Below are positions 6,516 through 34,292 of a stretch of DNA of 39,182 nucleotides, piece after piece. The stretch covers positions 1 through 39,182 of the forward strand of contig JAKLFY010000062.1 of assembly GCA_022710935.1 (NCBI GenBank). Direction: 5' to 3'. A program made the translations under genes and the position numbers. The notes under the pieces were generated by a model that was given only the letters and a program-made list of their open reading frames with translations, was not told where the DNA came from and did not search any database. Position 1 is the first letter of the stretch. The number at the start of each line of letters is the position of its first letter. This stretch comes from Verrucomicrobiota bacterium. Lineage in GTDB: Bacteria; Verrucomicrobiota; Verrucomicrobiia; Limisphaerales; J093.

Positions 6516-6528
6516 GGAAAGGCAATAG
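6472..6528 (+). pseudogene. Truncated PEP-CTERM gene, signal peptide only
   Basis: The duplicated start gives MKRTLFALAMVIAAG, identical to the signal peptide of the protein at 18400. It then runs into element sequence (ERQ) and stops at a TAG supplied by the doubled element end. Eighteen codons remain of a gene whose intact relative has 186. The start signals are intact, so a short peptide might still be made. Confidence 0.8.
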
Positions 6529-6580
6529 GGTCAGATCCGTGAAAAGGCAATAGGGTCAGATCCGTATTATTGACACATAG
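6517..6580. mobile_element. Insertion-element end with doubled 24-25-bp unit
   Basis: The unit gaaaggcaatagggtcagat + ccgt occurs twice in tandem (6517-6540 and 6541-6565, the second with one extra A), followed by attattgacacatag. The reverse complement of 6541-6580 matches 19096-19135 at about 30 of 40 positions, so both are probably ends of one element family. It abuts the truncated PEP-CTERM copy on its left and a DUF4338 relic on its right. Confidence 0.6.
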
Positions 6581-30098: not shown

Positions 30099-30683
30099 GA
30101 CGGTGTCCTTTCCTTGGTTCTTGGTTCTATCGCTGACGCGCCAGTGCATGGGAAATGCCAGTTTTCGGCTGTCGTTGAGAGGCAGGGCTTCTCTGGGCCT
30201 TCGCGTGCGCTCTTCGGGCGGTCGGCCGAGCAGGGACGCATCGGCGCGGGTCGGAGCCCTAAACGTTTGCGGTGCAACGGTCAGGGCGGGGTGGGATGTG
30301 ATGCTTGGCGACGCGAACCCGCACGGAATTCACGGGTGAGCGGCATCCACTGATCTTCTACATTTGATCGCCGCCATCGAGAGCCGGCGGGTCGGCTGAA
30401 CCGGTTCTATTCAAAGTCTATTCCGAATCTATCCATACTTTTAGGGAGAGATCTTGGATAGATTCATGGTGACTGTTCACGTGGTTCGAATTGAACCGCG
30501 AAATACGCGGACCCGGCGCCGTACTGGGAAAGCATCCTTCCTTCTTTTTTGCGTGTTTGCGGTTACCCTCCTGAACAGTTGTGCGTCGGAAGAGCAACGG
30601 GGCTCGCGAACGACTGTCGGAGCCGGAAATGACTTGTGGAAAGGGCGGTCTGGTCTACTTTCACCGATTCGAAAGAACACGAC
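30099..30683. other. 585-bp region without a convincing gene
   Basis: I see no supported gene. It contains the ribosome binding site of the upstream minus-strand gene, direct-repeat-like ttctattcaaagtctattccg near 30403, and a segment near 30490-30560 (gaaccgcgaaatacgcgg ... gcgtgtttgcggttac). The ends of that segment are roughly complementary and it resembles intergenic repeats of many environmental bacteria. Confidence 0.6.
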
Positions 30684-31091
30684 ATGCATTCAAATCTTGA
30701 TAACGGACCGGTGCTCGACAAGACGCGCGAGCTGTGCGAGACCATCGTCAACCAGCCTGATTTCCTTGCCATGCGGCGGGACGTCGAGACGTTTCTGGCC
30801 GACGATGATGCGCGCTCCCGGTACCACACCCTCGCCAGCAAGGGGCAGGACCTGCAATACAAACAGCAGCAGGGTGCTCAGTTGACACGCCAGGAGATCG
30901 AGGCCTTCGAGCAGGAGCGGGAGACCCTCATGCAGAATGGTGTCGTCCGCGGATTCCTCGAGGCCCAACAGCAGATGCAGCAGGTCCATGAGACCGTCGG
31001 CCGCTATGTCATGAAGGCGATGGAACTCGGTCGCGTGCCTGAGGAGGACGATTTCGCCGGCTGCGGTCAGGGCTGCAGTTGCGGGCACTGA
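30684..31091 (+). CDS. YlbF-family protein with cysteine-rich tail
   Basis: This 135-residue helical cytosolic protein belongs to the YlbF/YmcA group: TRELCETIVNQPDFLAMRRDVETFLADDDARSRYHTLASKGQ near the start, then QEIEAFEQERETLMQNGVVRGFLEAQQQMQQVHETVGRYVMKAME. In Bacillus, members of the group form a complex with YaaT and RNase Y that affects RNA processing and differentiation. The unusual feature is the tail FAGCGQGCSCGH, with three Cys and a terminal His, which could hold a metal or iron-sulfur cluster. The ATG at 30684 fits the family start. It is convergent with the Sel1 gene, 16 bp apart. Confidence 0.85.
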   Translation: MHSNLDNGPVLDKTRELCETIVNQPDFLAMRRDVETFLADDDARSRYHTLASKGQDLQYKQQQGAQLTRQEIEAFEQERETLMQNGVVRGFLEAQQQMQQVHETVGRYVMKAMELGRVPEEDDFAGCGQGCSCGH

Positions 31092-32011: not shown

Positions 32012-32596
32012 TCACAACCACTGATCGAGCTGCTCGCGCAGCAGGCGCCGAGCCCGGTACAGCCGCGATTCCACCGCCTTGGGTGTGGTGCCGATGATGC
32101 GCGCCGCCTCGGCTACCGCCAGGTCCTGCCACTCGCACAGAACGATGGCTTCGCGCAGGTCCTCCGGCAACTGCCAGACAGCGTGGCGCACCGCGGCGTT
32201 GCGCTCCTCGGCCTGGAGTTCGCAGTCAGGGGGAGGTGTGTCGGCAGGCAAAACATCGTGGAGACTCGAATTGGCCGATTCATCGGCAGGTTCCAGTGGC
32301 ACTGTGGGGTGCCGTATCCGCCAGCGCATGCGGTTGCGCGCCAGGTTGCCTGCGATGGTCAAGAGCCAGTTGCCGAAAGCGTGCTCGGGGCGGAAGGACT
32401 CCCGCGAGCGATAGACCCGCGCGAAGGTCTCCTGGGCCAGGTCCCGAGCGTCCTCCTCGTCGCCCAGCATGCGGTAGAGAAAACGGAACACCGCCGCGGC
32501 GTGACGCTCCATCAGGCTGGATAAAGCCGCGTCCTGGCCTGCCTTCAGGCGCGCCATGTCGTCCCGGTCCAGCGCCTCGATGTCCTCAGTGGGCAT
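32012..32596 (-). CDS. ECF RNA polymerase sigma factor (CnrH-like position)
   Basis: This 194-residue sigma-70 family factor has region 2 at about residues 20-90 (LMERHAAAVFRFLYRMLGDEEDARDLAQETFARVYRSRESF) and region 4 at about 135-190 (LPEDLREAIVLCEWQDLAVAEAARIIGTTPKAVESRLYRARRLL). There is no region 1 or 3, as in ECF factors. Its start overlaps the end of the metal-sensor-like gene by 11 bp. With the anti-sigma-like gene first and the sensor second, the order is that of cnrYXH, the cobalt-nickel signalling operon of Cupriavidus. I expect it to transcribe this operon and the divergent Cys-rich gene, but I could not identify its promoter motif. Confidence 0.93.
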   Translation of the reverse strand: MPTEDIEALDRDDMARLKAGQDAALSSLMERHAAAVFRFLYRMLGDEEDARDLAQETFARVYRSRESFRPEHAFGNWLLTIAGNLARNRMRWRIRHPTVPLEPADESANSSLHDVLPADTPPPDCELQAEERNAAVRHAVWQLPEDLREAIVLCEWQDLAVAEAARIIGTTPKAVESRLYRARRLLREQLDQWL

Positions 32597-33077
32597 GCGT
32601 GGCGTGGACGGGGCGGGTCATGGCGGACTCGATTTGCTCGTGCGACTCGATGGTCAATCGGCGCATTTCGCTCAGGTAGCGTCGGCCTTCGTCCGGGGGC
32701 ATCGCGCGGCTCACTTCGTCGAAATGGCGAAGCATGGCGCTTTGGCATTGGGCCCGCAGCGAGCCAATTTCCGCCAGGATTCGCTCGACCTCGGCAGTGA
32801 CGCTCGACGCGTTGTCCAAGAGCGAGCGCAGTTCGCGTTTGCGGTCGTCGATCTGCTCGCAGAAGCTGCGACAGGAGGGTTTGTAACCTTCATGCAGCGT
32901 GCGGATGCGCTCGAGTTGCACGCTGTCGAGCTTGAACTCCTGTTGCAGCCATTTCAATTCGTCGTCGTCTTGACAGGCATGCTGGCAGCAGAACAGGTTC
33001 GAAACCCGGGCCGCCGCAACAAAGACCGCGGCGCCACTGACGGCCAGGATGCAGAGCGATAGGAGTGGGCGGCGCAT
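32586..33077 (-). CDS. Periplasmic heavy-metal sensor, CnrX/Spy-like
   Basis: This 163-residue membrane-anchored periplasmic protein has an N-terminal helix (LLSLCILAVSGAAVFVAAARV) and then a helical hairpin typical of the metal-resistance (CnrX/Spy/ZraP) superfamily: LKWLQQEFKLDSVQLERIRTLHEGYKPSCRSFCEQIDDRKRELRSLL, and AEVERILAEIGSLRAQCQSAMLRHFDEVSRAMPPDEGRRYLSEMRRL. Potential ligands are abundant: LFCCQHAC after the helix, SCRSFC, AQCQ, and a C-terminal HATHAH. In CnrX metal binding releases the sigma factor from its membrane anti-sigma. The ATG is one base after the stop of the upstream gene (TGACATG), and the 3' end overlaps the sigma gene. Confidence 0.85.
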   Translation of the reverse strand: MRRPLLSLCILAVSGAAVFVAAARVSNLFCCQHACQDDDELKWLQQEFKLDSVQLERIRTLHEGYKPSCRSFCEQIDDRKRELRSLLDNASSVTAEVERILAEIGSLRAQCQSAMLRHFDEVSRAMPPDEGRRYLSEMRRLTIESHEQIESAMTRPVHATHAH

Positions 33078-33078
33078 G

Positions 33079-33408
33079 TCAATGCAGGGCGTCCGGCGCC
33101 ACGCTCGCCACGTAGGCTGCACGAGCCGAATCGCGGGACTGGGCGGCGGCGGAAATCCCTCCGACCAGCACGCCCGCCACGAGCACGGCGGTGAAGCCCC
33201 CGGCCAGCACCCACGGGCGAAGGACGCTGGCGGCCAGGCGGTCCACCCACGCCCGCCAAAGCGTCGAAGGCGAGGGCTCACCCTCCCACAGTTCCAACCG
33301 GCGCCAGACTCCTTCCTGAAAGCGTGGAGGCAGGTCGGGCCTGGGCCGCGCCTGGCGCAGCAGACTCGACAGTCCATCGTCCCCAGAACGGTCATTCACT
33401 GTCTTCAT
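33079..33408 (-). CDS. Membrane anti-sigma factor, CnrY-like position
   Basis: This 109-residue single-pass protein has a cytosolic N-terminal half with the helix LPPRFQEGVWRRLELWEGE that could clamp a sigma factor. One transmembrane segment follows (VLAGGFTAVLVAGVLVGGISAAA, about 68-90), then a short periplasmic tail (AAYVASVAPDALH). Size, topology and first place in an anti-sigma, sensor, sigma operon match CnrY; sequence similarity to CnrY itself is not obvious. Interaction is inferred from context. The ATG at 33406-33408 is clear. Confidence 0.75.
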   Translation of the reverse strand: MKTVNDRSGDDGLSSLLRQARPRPDLPPRFQEGVWRRLELWEGEPSPSTLWRAWVDRLAASVLRPWVLAGGFTAVLVAGVLVGGISAAAQSRDSARAAYVASVAPDALH

Positions 33409-33595
33409 GTTCGCAACAAGGCGGCCAGCCAGAGGCCACCCTACTCAGACTATACCCCGGCTATTCCCAAAGCACGCGGATATTCTTGTCGCAGCAAATT
33501 GAAGGTCGGTTGAGGGTTTTCAGGCCGTGCGGGGTAAGACGTGCAGTGACCGGTCGTGCTGACCGTCGCAAGACGACAACAAAAACGAACGAACA
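33409..33595. promoter_or_regulatory. Divergent control region of the metal circuit
   Basis: These 187 bp separate the sigma operon (left, minus strand) from the Cys-rich gene (right). An inverted repeat cggtc-gtgct-gaccg lies at 33551-33565, 30 bp before the Cys-rich ATG. I could not find a canonical ECF -35 (GGAAC-like) and -10 pair on either strand. Confidence 0.5.
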
Positions 33596-33997
33596 ATGAA
33601 GCCCATGATGAACAAACGCTGCTGGCTCAAGGCCGCTTGCGCCGCAATAGCCGCGACTCTGCTGGTTGCGCTAACCTCACCCGTCCTCGCGTTGGAGAAT
33701 GGCGCCGAACGGCTGGTGGCCGCGACGCGCGACGCGCAGTCCGTGGCCTCGTGCCAAGCCGCATGCTGCGATTCGAACCCGCTCAGTGCCGGCTCGAGAT
33801 GCGCCGAGTGCAAATGCGCCGAGTGCAAATGCGCCGAGTGTAAATGCGCCGAGTGTAAATGTGCCGAGTGTAAATGTGCCGAGTGTAAATGTGCCGAGTG
33901 CGGAACTCTGGGCTGCAAGTGTGGTGATTGCCAATGCGCAGACTGCAAGTGCCCCAAGACCGGCGATAAGACCTTGGCGAAGCCCTGCTGCAAATAG
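33596..33997 (+). CDS. Exported metallothionein-like CAECK-repeat protein
   Basis: This 133-residue protein has a signal peptide (LKAACAAIAATLLVALTSPVLA) and a mature region dominated by cysteine. Seven tandem units, six CAECK and one CAECG, occupy about residues 69-103. They are followed by LGCKCGDCQCADCKCPKTG and a final PCCK. The mature part has about 25 Cys. CxxC and CxC spacing throughout is what metallothioneins use for Cu(I), Zn, Cd or Hg thiolate clusters, but export to the periplasm is unusual for a metallothionein. The gene is divergent from the CnrYXH-like operon, so metal-induced expression is the natural hypothesis. I know no named family with this repeat. Which metal it binds, if any, is unknown. 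Confidence 0.88.
   Translation: MKPMMNKRCWLKAACAAIAATLLVALTSPVLALENGAERLVAATRDAQSVASCQAACCDSNPLSAGSRCAECKCAECKCAECKCAECKCAECKCAECKCAECGTLGCKCGDCQCADCKCPKTGDKTLAKPCCK
33800..33904 (+). repeat. Seven tandem 15-bp units coding CAECK
   Basis: The unit tgYgccgagtgYaaa is repeated seven times; the last ends cgga. Cys codons drift from TGC in the first units to TGT in the later ones, and the last unit returns to TGC at its second Cys. Differences are confined to synonymous third positions until the terminal unit. Confidence 0.95.
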
Positions 33998-34073: not shown

Positions 34074-34227
34074 AAAACGGGTCAGTTCTAAAACGGGTCA
34101 GTTCTTGATTTTGTCATGTCCTTCGCCAGCCCCTCTTGGGCTGGCGATGCTGCACGCGACGGACAGACCGCGCGGCCGCACCTGACTGCGCCTGTCCTGA
34201 GAATATGACAATATCAAGAACTGACCC
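34074..34227. mobile_element. MITE-like element with doubled left end
   Basis: Terminal inverted repeats of 23 bp (34095-34117 and 34205-34227, one mismatch) begin gggtcagttcttgat. They enclose a 9-bp hairpin tcgccagcc/ggctggcga at 34123-34147. The outer left 16 bp aaaacgggtcagttct occur twice in tandem (34074-34089, 34090-34105). There is no coding capacity. Confidence 0.75.
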
Positions 34228-34292
34228 CTCAGGCAGTCGCCGGGCTGAATGCGGAAGTCGACAGTTGGACGGGTTTCGGCTAGGAGTTGGTC

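Follow-up and report, generated by a model that had tools for sequence, protein, structure and literature searches.

A CnrYXH-type ECF sigma factor module and its predicted regulon, including an exported cysteine-repeat protein, in a Verrucomicrobiota genome

The described system closest to the locus presented here is the Cnr system of Cupriavidus metallidurans (PMC7689651, PMC9045368). In CnrYXH the binding of metal to X weakens the grip of Y on H, and the freed H starts transcription; Met123 of CnrX is required for the nickel and cobalt signalling (PMC7689651). A similar circuit was postulated for a stretch of 39,182 nucleotides of Verrucomicrobiota DNA, the whole of which is called the window below. 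The original prediction rested on three genes on the minus strand, which are the following:

32012-32596, minus strand: ECF sigma factor, 194 amino acids (Pfam Sigma70_r2, E 5.6e-18; r4_2, E 4.8e-13)
32586-33077, minus strand: membrane-anchored periplasmic sensor with the CnrX/NccX fold, 163 amino acids (PF13801 Metal_resist, E 9.2e-8)
33079-33408, minus strand: putative single-pass anti-sigma protein, 109 amino acids, the function being assigned from its position

Coordinates and order of this trio hold, and the operon runs from the anti-sigma gene over the X-type sensor to the ECF sigma factor, which is the order of CnrYXH. The trio had also been called overlapping, which is correct for the sigma and sensor genes (11 bp) but not for the anti-sigma and sensor genes; these abut, with one base between the anti-sigma stop codon (33081-33079) and the sensor ATG (33077). 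The genome holds a single trio. The sigma factor matches CnrH (4cxf) with an E of 8e-16, while AlgU, SigE, SigW and RpoE score better; because its region 4 extends to residue 186 of 194 there is no room for a cysteine-rich tail. The anti-sigma protein has one transmembrane stretch and a conserved cytosolic motif, LPPxF...VWRR. It gave no match in a Pfam search, and a profile of 30 anti-sigma sequences run against the PDB did not find CnrY, to which the similarity is one of topology only.

The sensor has one membrane anchor, and its PF13801 match exceeds Pfam's cut-off. An AlphaFold model made from single-sequence input (pLDDT 74) was submitted to Foldseek, where CnrX and NccX were the top PDB folds (prob 1.00); the Z values of the fold comparison are 8.4-9.2. 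Since helical bundles often give middling Z values, the profile match to NccX (residues 1-131, same topology, E 0.006) and the PF13801 match are useful independent support. Together with the gene order, the CnrX fold of the sensor bears out the idea of a CnrYXH-like circuit.

The metal site of the sensor is another matter. Among 91 sensor homologues the near-invariant residues which could be ligands are H62, C69, C73, C111, M115, H118 and M126, that is three cysteines, two methionines and two histidines; this set is a proposal read from conservation, not from a metal-bound structure. The residues were compared with the CnrX ligands by their numbering. In the NccX alignment H118 alone coincides with a known CnrX ligand, the position of CnrX Met123 is occupied by Val122 (95% conserved), and C69, C73 and C111 are new relative to the CnrX ligands. 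The sensor probably works like CnrX but is not classifiable as a nickel/cobalt CnrX, because just H118 is shared and Met123 is replaced by Val122. Nickel/cobalt sensing was rejected as the preferred reading since the CnrX ligands are absent from the sensor, and on this reading of the residues nickel or cobalt is unlikely to be the inducing metal.

On the other side of the trio lies the gene which gives the locus its unusual appearance:

33596-33997, plus strand: exported cysteine-rich protein, 133 amino acids, with a Sec-type signal ending at about residue 33
33800-33904, plus strand: 15-bp tandem repeat encoding six CAECK units and one CAECG

The gene is divergent from the trio, with 187 bp to the start of the anti-sigma gene. 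The protein has 27 cysteines, 25 of them in the mature part of 100 residues, and export, divergence, distance and the number of about 25 mature cysteines are thus all as originally described. The mature part contains nine CxxC, nine CxC and two CC motifs, and is built of six CAECK units followed by CAECG and CKCGDCQCADCKC, with CCK at the end. At the DNA level the 15-bp unit is present in 6.8 copies which match at 97%; the CAECK copies differ at third codon positions only, and all the differences are synonymous. No Pfam family matches the protein above cut-off. Searches of Pfam and NCBIfam gave no metallothionein match, only a repeat model below cut-off, and no match to the Csp family of four-helix bundles; the sequence is the CAECK repeat. 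The DNA pattern for CAECK-CAECK was found once in 84,980 species genomes, antisense to another gene. A homology search with the protein within the family returned itself and one low-complexity match, to the strand opposite a gene that carries repeats. The CAECK repeat is accordingly found in one species only. The protein is likely to bind metal through thiolates.

Some other features of this part of the window should be mentioned. Just downstream of the cysteine gene, at 34074-34240, there are direct and inverted copies of GGGTCAGTTCT(TGAT), resembling a dispersed repeat element of the REP type, with AAAACGGGTCAGTTCT occurring twice and then ATCAAGAACTGACCCC. A GGGTCAG motif similar to these copies is present in the tandem repeat at 6518-6565. 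A protein of the YlbF/YmcA type (Com_YlbF, PF06133) is encoded on the plus strand at 30636-31091 and has a Cys/His-rich C-terminal tail, GCGQGCSCGH.

Within the order, a sensor homologue is present in 83 of 196 genomes; none was found in plasmids and viral contigs. An anti-sigma gene is present at all of the 61 loci which were fetched, the three families occur together at nearly every one, and the order anti-sigma, sensor, sigma is the same at almost all of them. A rearranged trio is seen at locus L039, where the sigma gene precedes the anti-sigma gene and does not follow the sensor gene.

Around the trios we find four families of small exported cysteine proteins, named here from their motifs KGAERL, SPRA, YHS-like and PLFRHC, and such proteins are the usual partners of the trio. 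KGAERL proteins have E-K-G-A-E-x-L after the signal followed by four CxxC/CC motifs (CPKC...CPGC...CKxCG...CCxMK), and their genes are often divergent from the trio, which is the slot of the cysteine gene in the window. SPRA genes are co-directional with the trio, lie ahead of the anti-sigma gene and usually end in ACCAK. The KGAERL, SPRA and PLFRHC proteins tested belong to no Pfam family; the YHS-like protein has a weak match to PF04945. Counted by genome, KGAERL and trio occur together in 40 cases, KGAERL only in 5, the trio only in 42 and neither in 109 (odds ratio 21, p 1e-13), and 24 of 63 KGAERL genes are within 6 kb of a sensor gene. The CAECK protein carries ENGAERL after its signal; of 859 control ORFs with a signal, 857 score lower than this segment, but every member of the KGAERL family scores higher. 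A full-length KGAERL profile did not match the protein. Kinship with the family is suggested by ENGAERL; full homology could not be shown. The absence of homologues near ECF/CnrX-like genes had been named as a possible refutation of the circuit. It is not directly applicable because the CAECK repeat is seen only here, and the slot itself is occupied in relatives by other exported cysteine proteins.

For control of these genes we looked at the regions upstream of trios and neighbouring genes in related genomes. A count of paired 4-mers gave AGGG-N16-CGTA in 55 of 233 upstream regions, the shuffle maximum for any pair being 9. The de novo bipartite promoter reads TTTGAGGGATTT-N9-CGGCGTA, and its gap hardly varies (94%). 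With this genome left out of the training, the matrix finds sites of at least 9 bits in 132 of 206 upstream regions, compared with 8 shuffled ones, and in the window it points to two sites in the divergent region:

33509-33539, plus strand: predicted ECF promoter of the cysteine gene, GTTGAGGGTTTT-N9-CGGGGTAAGA, 30.0 bits
33450-33480, minus strand: predicted ECF promoter of the trio (autoregulation), 16.4 bits

The former is the best site on either strand of the 39-kb window and lies 56 nt before the start of the cysteine gene. The latter ranks second, has a weak -35 and lies 41 nt before the anti-sigma gene; the third-ranked site reaches only 12.2 bits. In 4 Mb of random Markov sequence no site of at least 20 bits was present, and with the same null a stretch of 39 kb should contain about 0.1 site of 16.4 bits by chance. 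The fetched loci, training sequences included, hold 181 sites of at least 16 bits where 3.1 are expected, and 137 of the 181 precede trio, KGAERL, SPRA, YHS, CusC or PLFRHC genes. In a hold-out set of 19 trio loci taken from other parts of the phylum, 14 have a site of at least 14 bits in about 3.4 kb, with an expectation of about 0.04 such site per locus. Only four exact matches to the core TGARGG-N14-GGNGTA are present in 7.5 Mb, two of which are the sites of the cysteine gene and of CusC (see below); the reversed control has two. The other two matches, within or near unrelated genes, were taken as chance. It should be noted that this core was picked after both sites had been seen, and the matrix scan is therefore the fair test.

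The common promoter thus strongly supports, at the level of sequence, the claim that the circuit controls the divergent gene, which is very probably under the promoter control of the trio's sigma factor. One could argue that the cysteine gene neighbours the trio by chance, or that it is the product of a neutral expansion of repeats outside sigma control, since the repeat occurs in a single species and was born by tandem duplication. A 30-bit promoter 56 nt upstream, a slot and leader length similar to those of other regulon members, a signal peptide and repeat copies differing only synonymously all speak against this, and we find it hardly credible.

The reach of the promoter goes beyond the window. 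The best-matching heavy-metal-binding CusB-like protein of the genome is encoded on another contig, C184, in an operon CusC-CusB-CopA-CusA, where CusC is an outer-membrane channel, CopA a P1B ATPase of the Cu type and CusA an RND pump. Over the 19 kb around this operon the highest-scoring promoter site has 17.1 bits and is situated 88 nt before CusC, the first gene. Going by promoter sequence, the sigma factor is predicted to control its own operon (16.4 bits) and an RND metal pump (17.1 bits). The RND protein has E. coli CusA as its closest relative among solved structures, and retains the segments GDLLYMP, AETATD..M and IDML, which in CusA carry the methionine triad; the CusA structure with this triad was reportedly presented by Long et al. 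in 2010 (cited in PMC7689651). The ATPase passes the copper cut-off of TIGR01511. A second HMBD/RND locus of the genome (L160) has no strong promoter site. Near related trios CusB, CusC or CusA-like genes are common; many of the RND genes there are cut by the locus ends or are without the CusA signature, and are not assignable to the Cu/Ag type. CusB and most PLFRHC genes near trios are not directly preceded by a site, which is what one expects of genes further down an operon.

The cysteine protein had been thought to be induced instead of an efflux pump. This part of the original prediction lacks support, since the same promoter precedes CusC-CusB-CopA-CusA and many related trios adjoin Cus genes; with one type of promoter before both the cysteine gene and CusC, sponge and pump look co-regulated. 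From the list of metals first proposed (Cu, Hg, Cd, Zn or Ni), copper, now with silver, is favoured by ligands and pump, while nickel has become unlikely. Copper or silver is the most likely inducing metal because the Cys/Met/His set of the sensor is linked to a CusA-type pump with a Cu-type ATPase.

Two other views of the signal have to be weighed here. The inducer could be a different ion of soft or borderline character (Hg, Cd, Zn or Au), with the Cus-type genes serving as a general metal defence: cysteine ligands suit Hg, Cd and Zn too, and the Metal_resist fold includes both nickel/cobalt (CnrX) and zinc (ZraP) proteins. The operon linked by its promoter here, with its Cu-type ATPase and CusA-type RND protein, and the combination of Met, Cys and His, which favours Cu(I)/Ag(I), make this unlikely. 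The circuit could also respond to envelope thiol or oxidative stress without any metal sensing, the cysteine protein being a sacrificial thiol target. Some pairs of ECF and anti-sigma factors sense redox through cysteines, which gives this idea a general background. The CnrX fold, the conserved Met and His beside the Cys, and the metal efflux genes within the regulon leave it very improbable.

Proteins with an expanded cysteine content are found behind the promoter in two other lineages, one form with CACCDATG and one rich in CCK, and this supports selection for cysteine content, not an accident of one repeat. At L054 the exported protein has 20 cysteines after the signal, with CACCDATG repeats, and a promoter of 29.4 bits 55 nt before its start; at L065 there are 12 cysteines and a promoter of 21.5 bits 48 nt before the start.

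Further exported proteins are found behind the same promoter. DUF3347-like proteins, directly behind it at L057, L073, L087, L088, L097 and L116, are candidate members of the regulon. Small proteins with repeated ITASP(K/R)xRQ and almost no cysteine occur at L076, L084, L091, L095 and L096; the one at L076 has no Pfam match. Proteins with repeated SPRMxExxPEL, at L056, L057 and L171, have promoters of 25-32 bits, and the one at L057 likewise has no Pfam match.

What the cysteine protein does within the same circuit is less settled than its control. It might deliver metal to the Cus pump, or have a redox or disulfide-bonded structural role, rather than storing metal. Such a role would fit with the promoter type common to the gene and the pump, with the modest CxxC protein (KGAERL), not a sponge, which usually occupies the slot, and with the regulon members YHS and DUF3347, which resemble binding or delivery proteins. 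As 25 cysteines in 100 residues, in alternating CxxC and CxC, are more than a chaperone needs, and as the expansion has also taken place in two other lineages, we regard delivery or a redox role as rather unlikely.

We therefore prefer, as the probable reading, a circuit for soft metals in the periplasm, with Cu(I)/Ag(I) the most likely ones, in which a variant of CnrYXH induces a thiolate sponge alongside a Cus pump. When metal is absent, the single-pass anti-sigma protein and the sensor would keep the ECF sigma factor at the membrane. Periplasmic Cu(I) or Ag(I) bound at the Cys/Met/His site of the sensor would loosen the complex and free the sigma factor, which would then read TGAGGG(A/T)T...GGNGTA promoters and induce its own trio, the exported Cys-repeat protein and the CusC-CusB-CopA-CusA operon on the other contig. 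The Cys-repeat protein would bind the metal as periplasmic thiolate clusters and so act as a buffer until the pump removes it; periplasmic free thiols can serve as a sponge only under reducing conditions or if they are quickly loaded with metal. In this scheme we infer which metal is sensed, how the sigma factor is released and that the repeat protein binds metal.

Judged by its parts, the sensor fold, the sharing of the promoter and the conservation, as read from sequence comparison, the trio forms a real, conserved regulatory module with clear limits. It varies the CnrYXH theme by another sensor site, and has a defined promoter and an unusual output in the exported Cys-repeat protein. A literature search, with most subscription journals outside its scope, found no paper describing it. 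Whether there is a phylum-wide ECF regulon for copper and silver, with its own promoter code, a Cys-based sensor of the CnrX type and undescribed exported cysteine proteins repeatedly expanded into metallothionein-like sponges, is a question on which we are evenly divided. If the model is true, the CnrYXH scheme is extended from nickel/cobalt to copper/silver by changed sensor ligands, the readable promoter makes it possible to list the regulon for every genome of the group, and metallothionein-like chemistry takes place outside the inner membrane beside an efflux pump. The predictions on promoter and ligands are directly testable.

With CnrYXH-CnrCBA of Cupriavidus metallidurans and NccYXH the module shares the Y-X-H order, the X-type fold, a putative membrane anti-sigma protein and the ECF sigma factor, and with the former also autoregulation and an RND pump in the regulon, here predicted from promoter sequence. 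It differs from CnrYXH in its Cys/Met/His set, where one His is kept in the NccX alignment and Met123 has become Val, in a linked pump of the Cu/Ag type, in partners most of which are small exported cysteine proteins, and in an anti-sigma protein without detectable sequence match to CnrY. CorE of Myxococcus xanthus (PMC3107203) is likewise an ECF sigma factor over copper genes, among them P1B ATPases, but it senses copper by its own C-terminal Cys-rich domain, which the sigma factor described here lacks, a membrane sensor being used instead. SigAb of Acinetobacter is a copper-induced ECF sigma factor for metal stress, and two partners in its operon have anti-sigma activity; the direct regulon consists of SigAb itself, relA and a small RNA, with no Cus pump or exported cysteine protein named in the abstract (PMC12153292). 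The exported protein resembles the bacterial metallothioneins SmtA and MymT in being small and Cys-rich with clustered cysteines (CxC and CxxC here), but these are treated as intracellular (PMC7558416), whereas the protein described here has a signal peptide and matches no metallothionein family. Like Csp1, proposed as a copper store, it is an exported thiol-rich protein; Csp1 has a Tat signal and is a preformed four-helix bundle (PMC7558416), while the protein of the window, with its low-complexity Cys repeat, has a signal of the Sec type.
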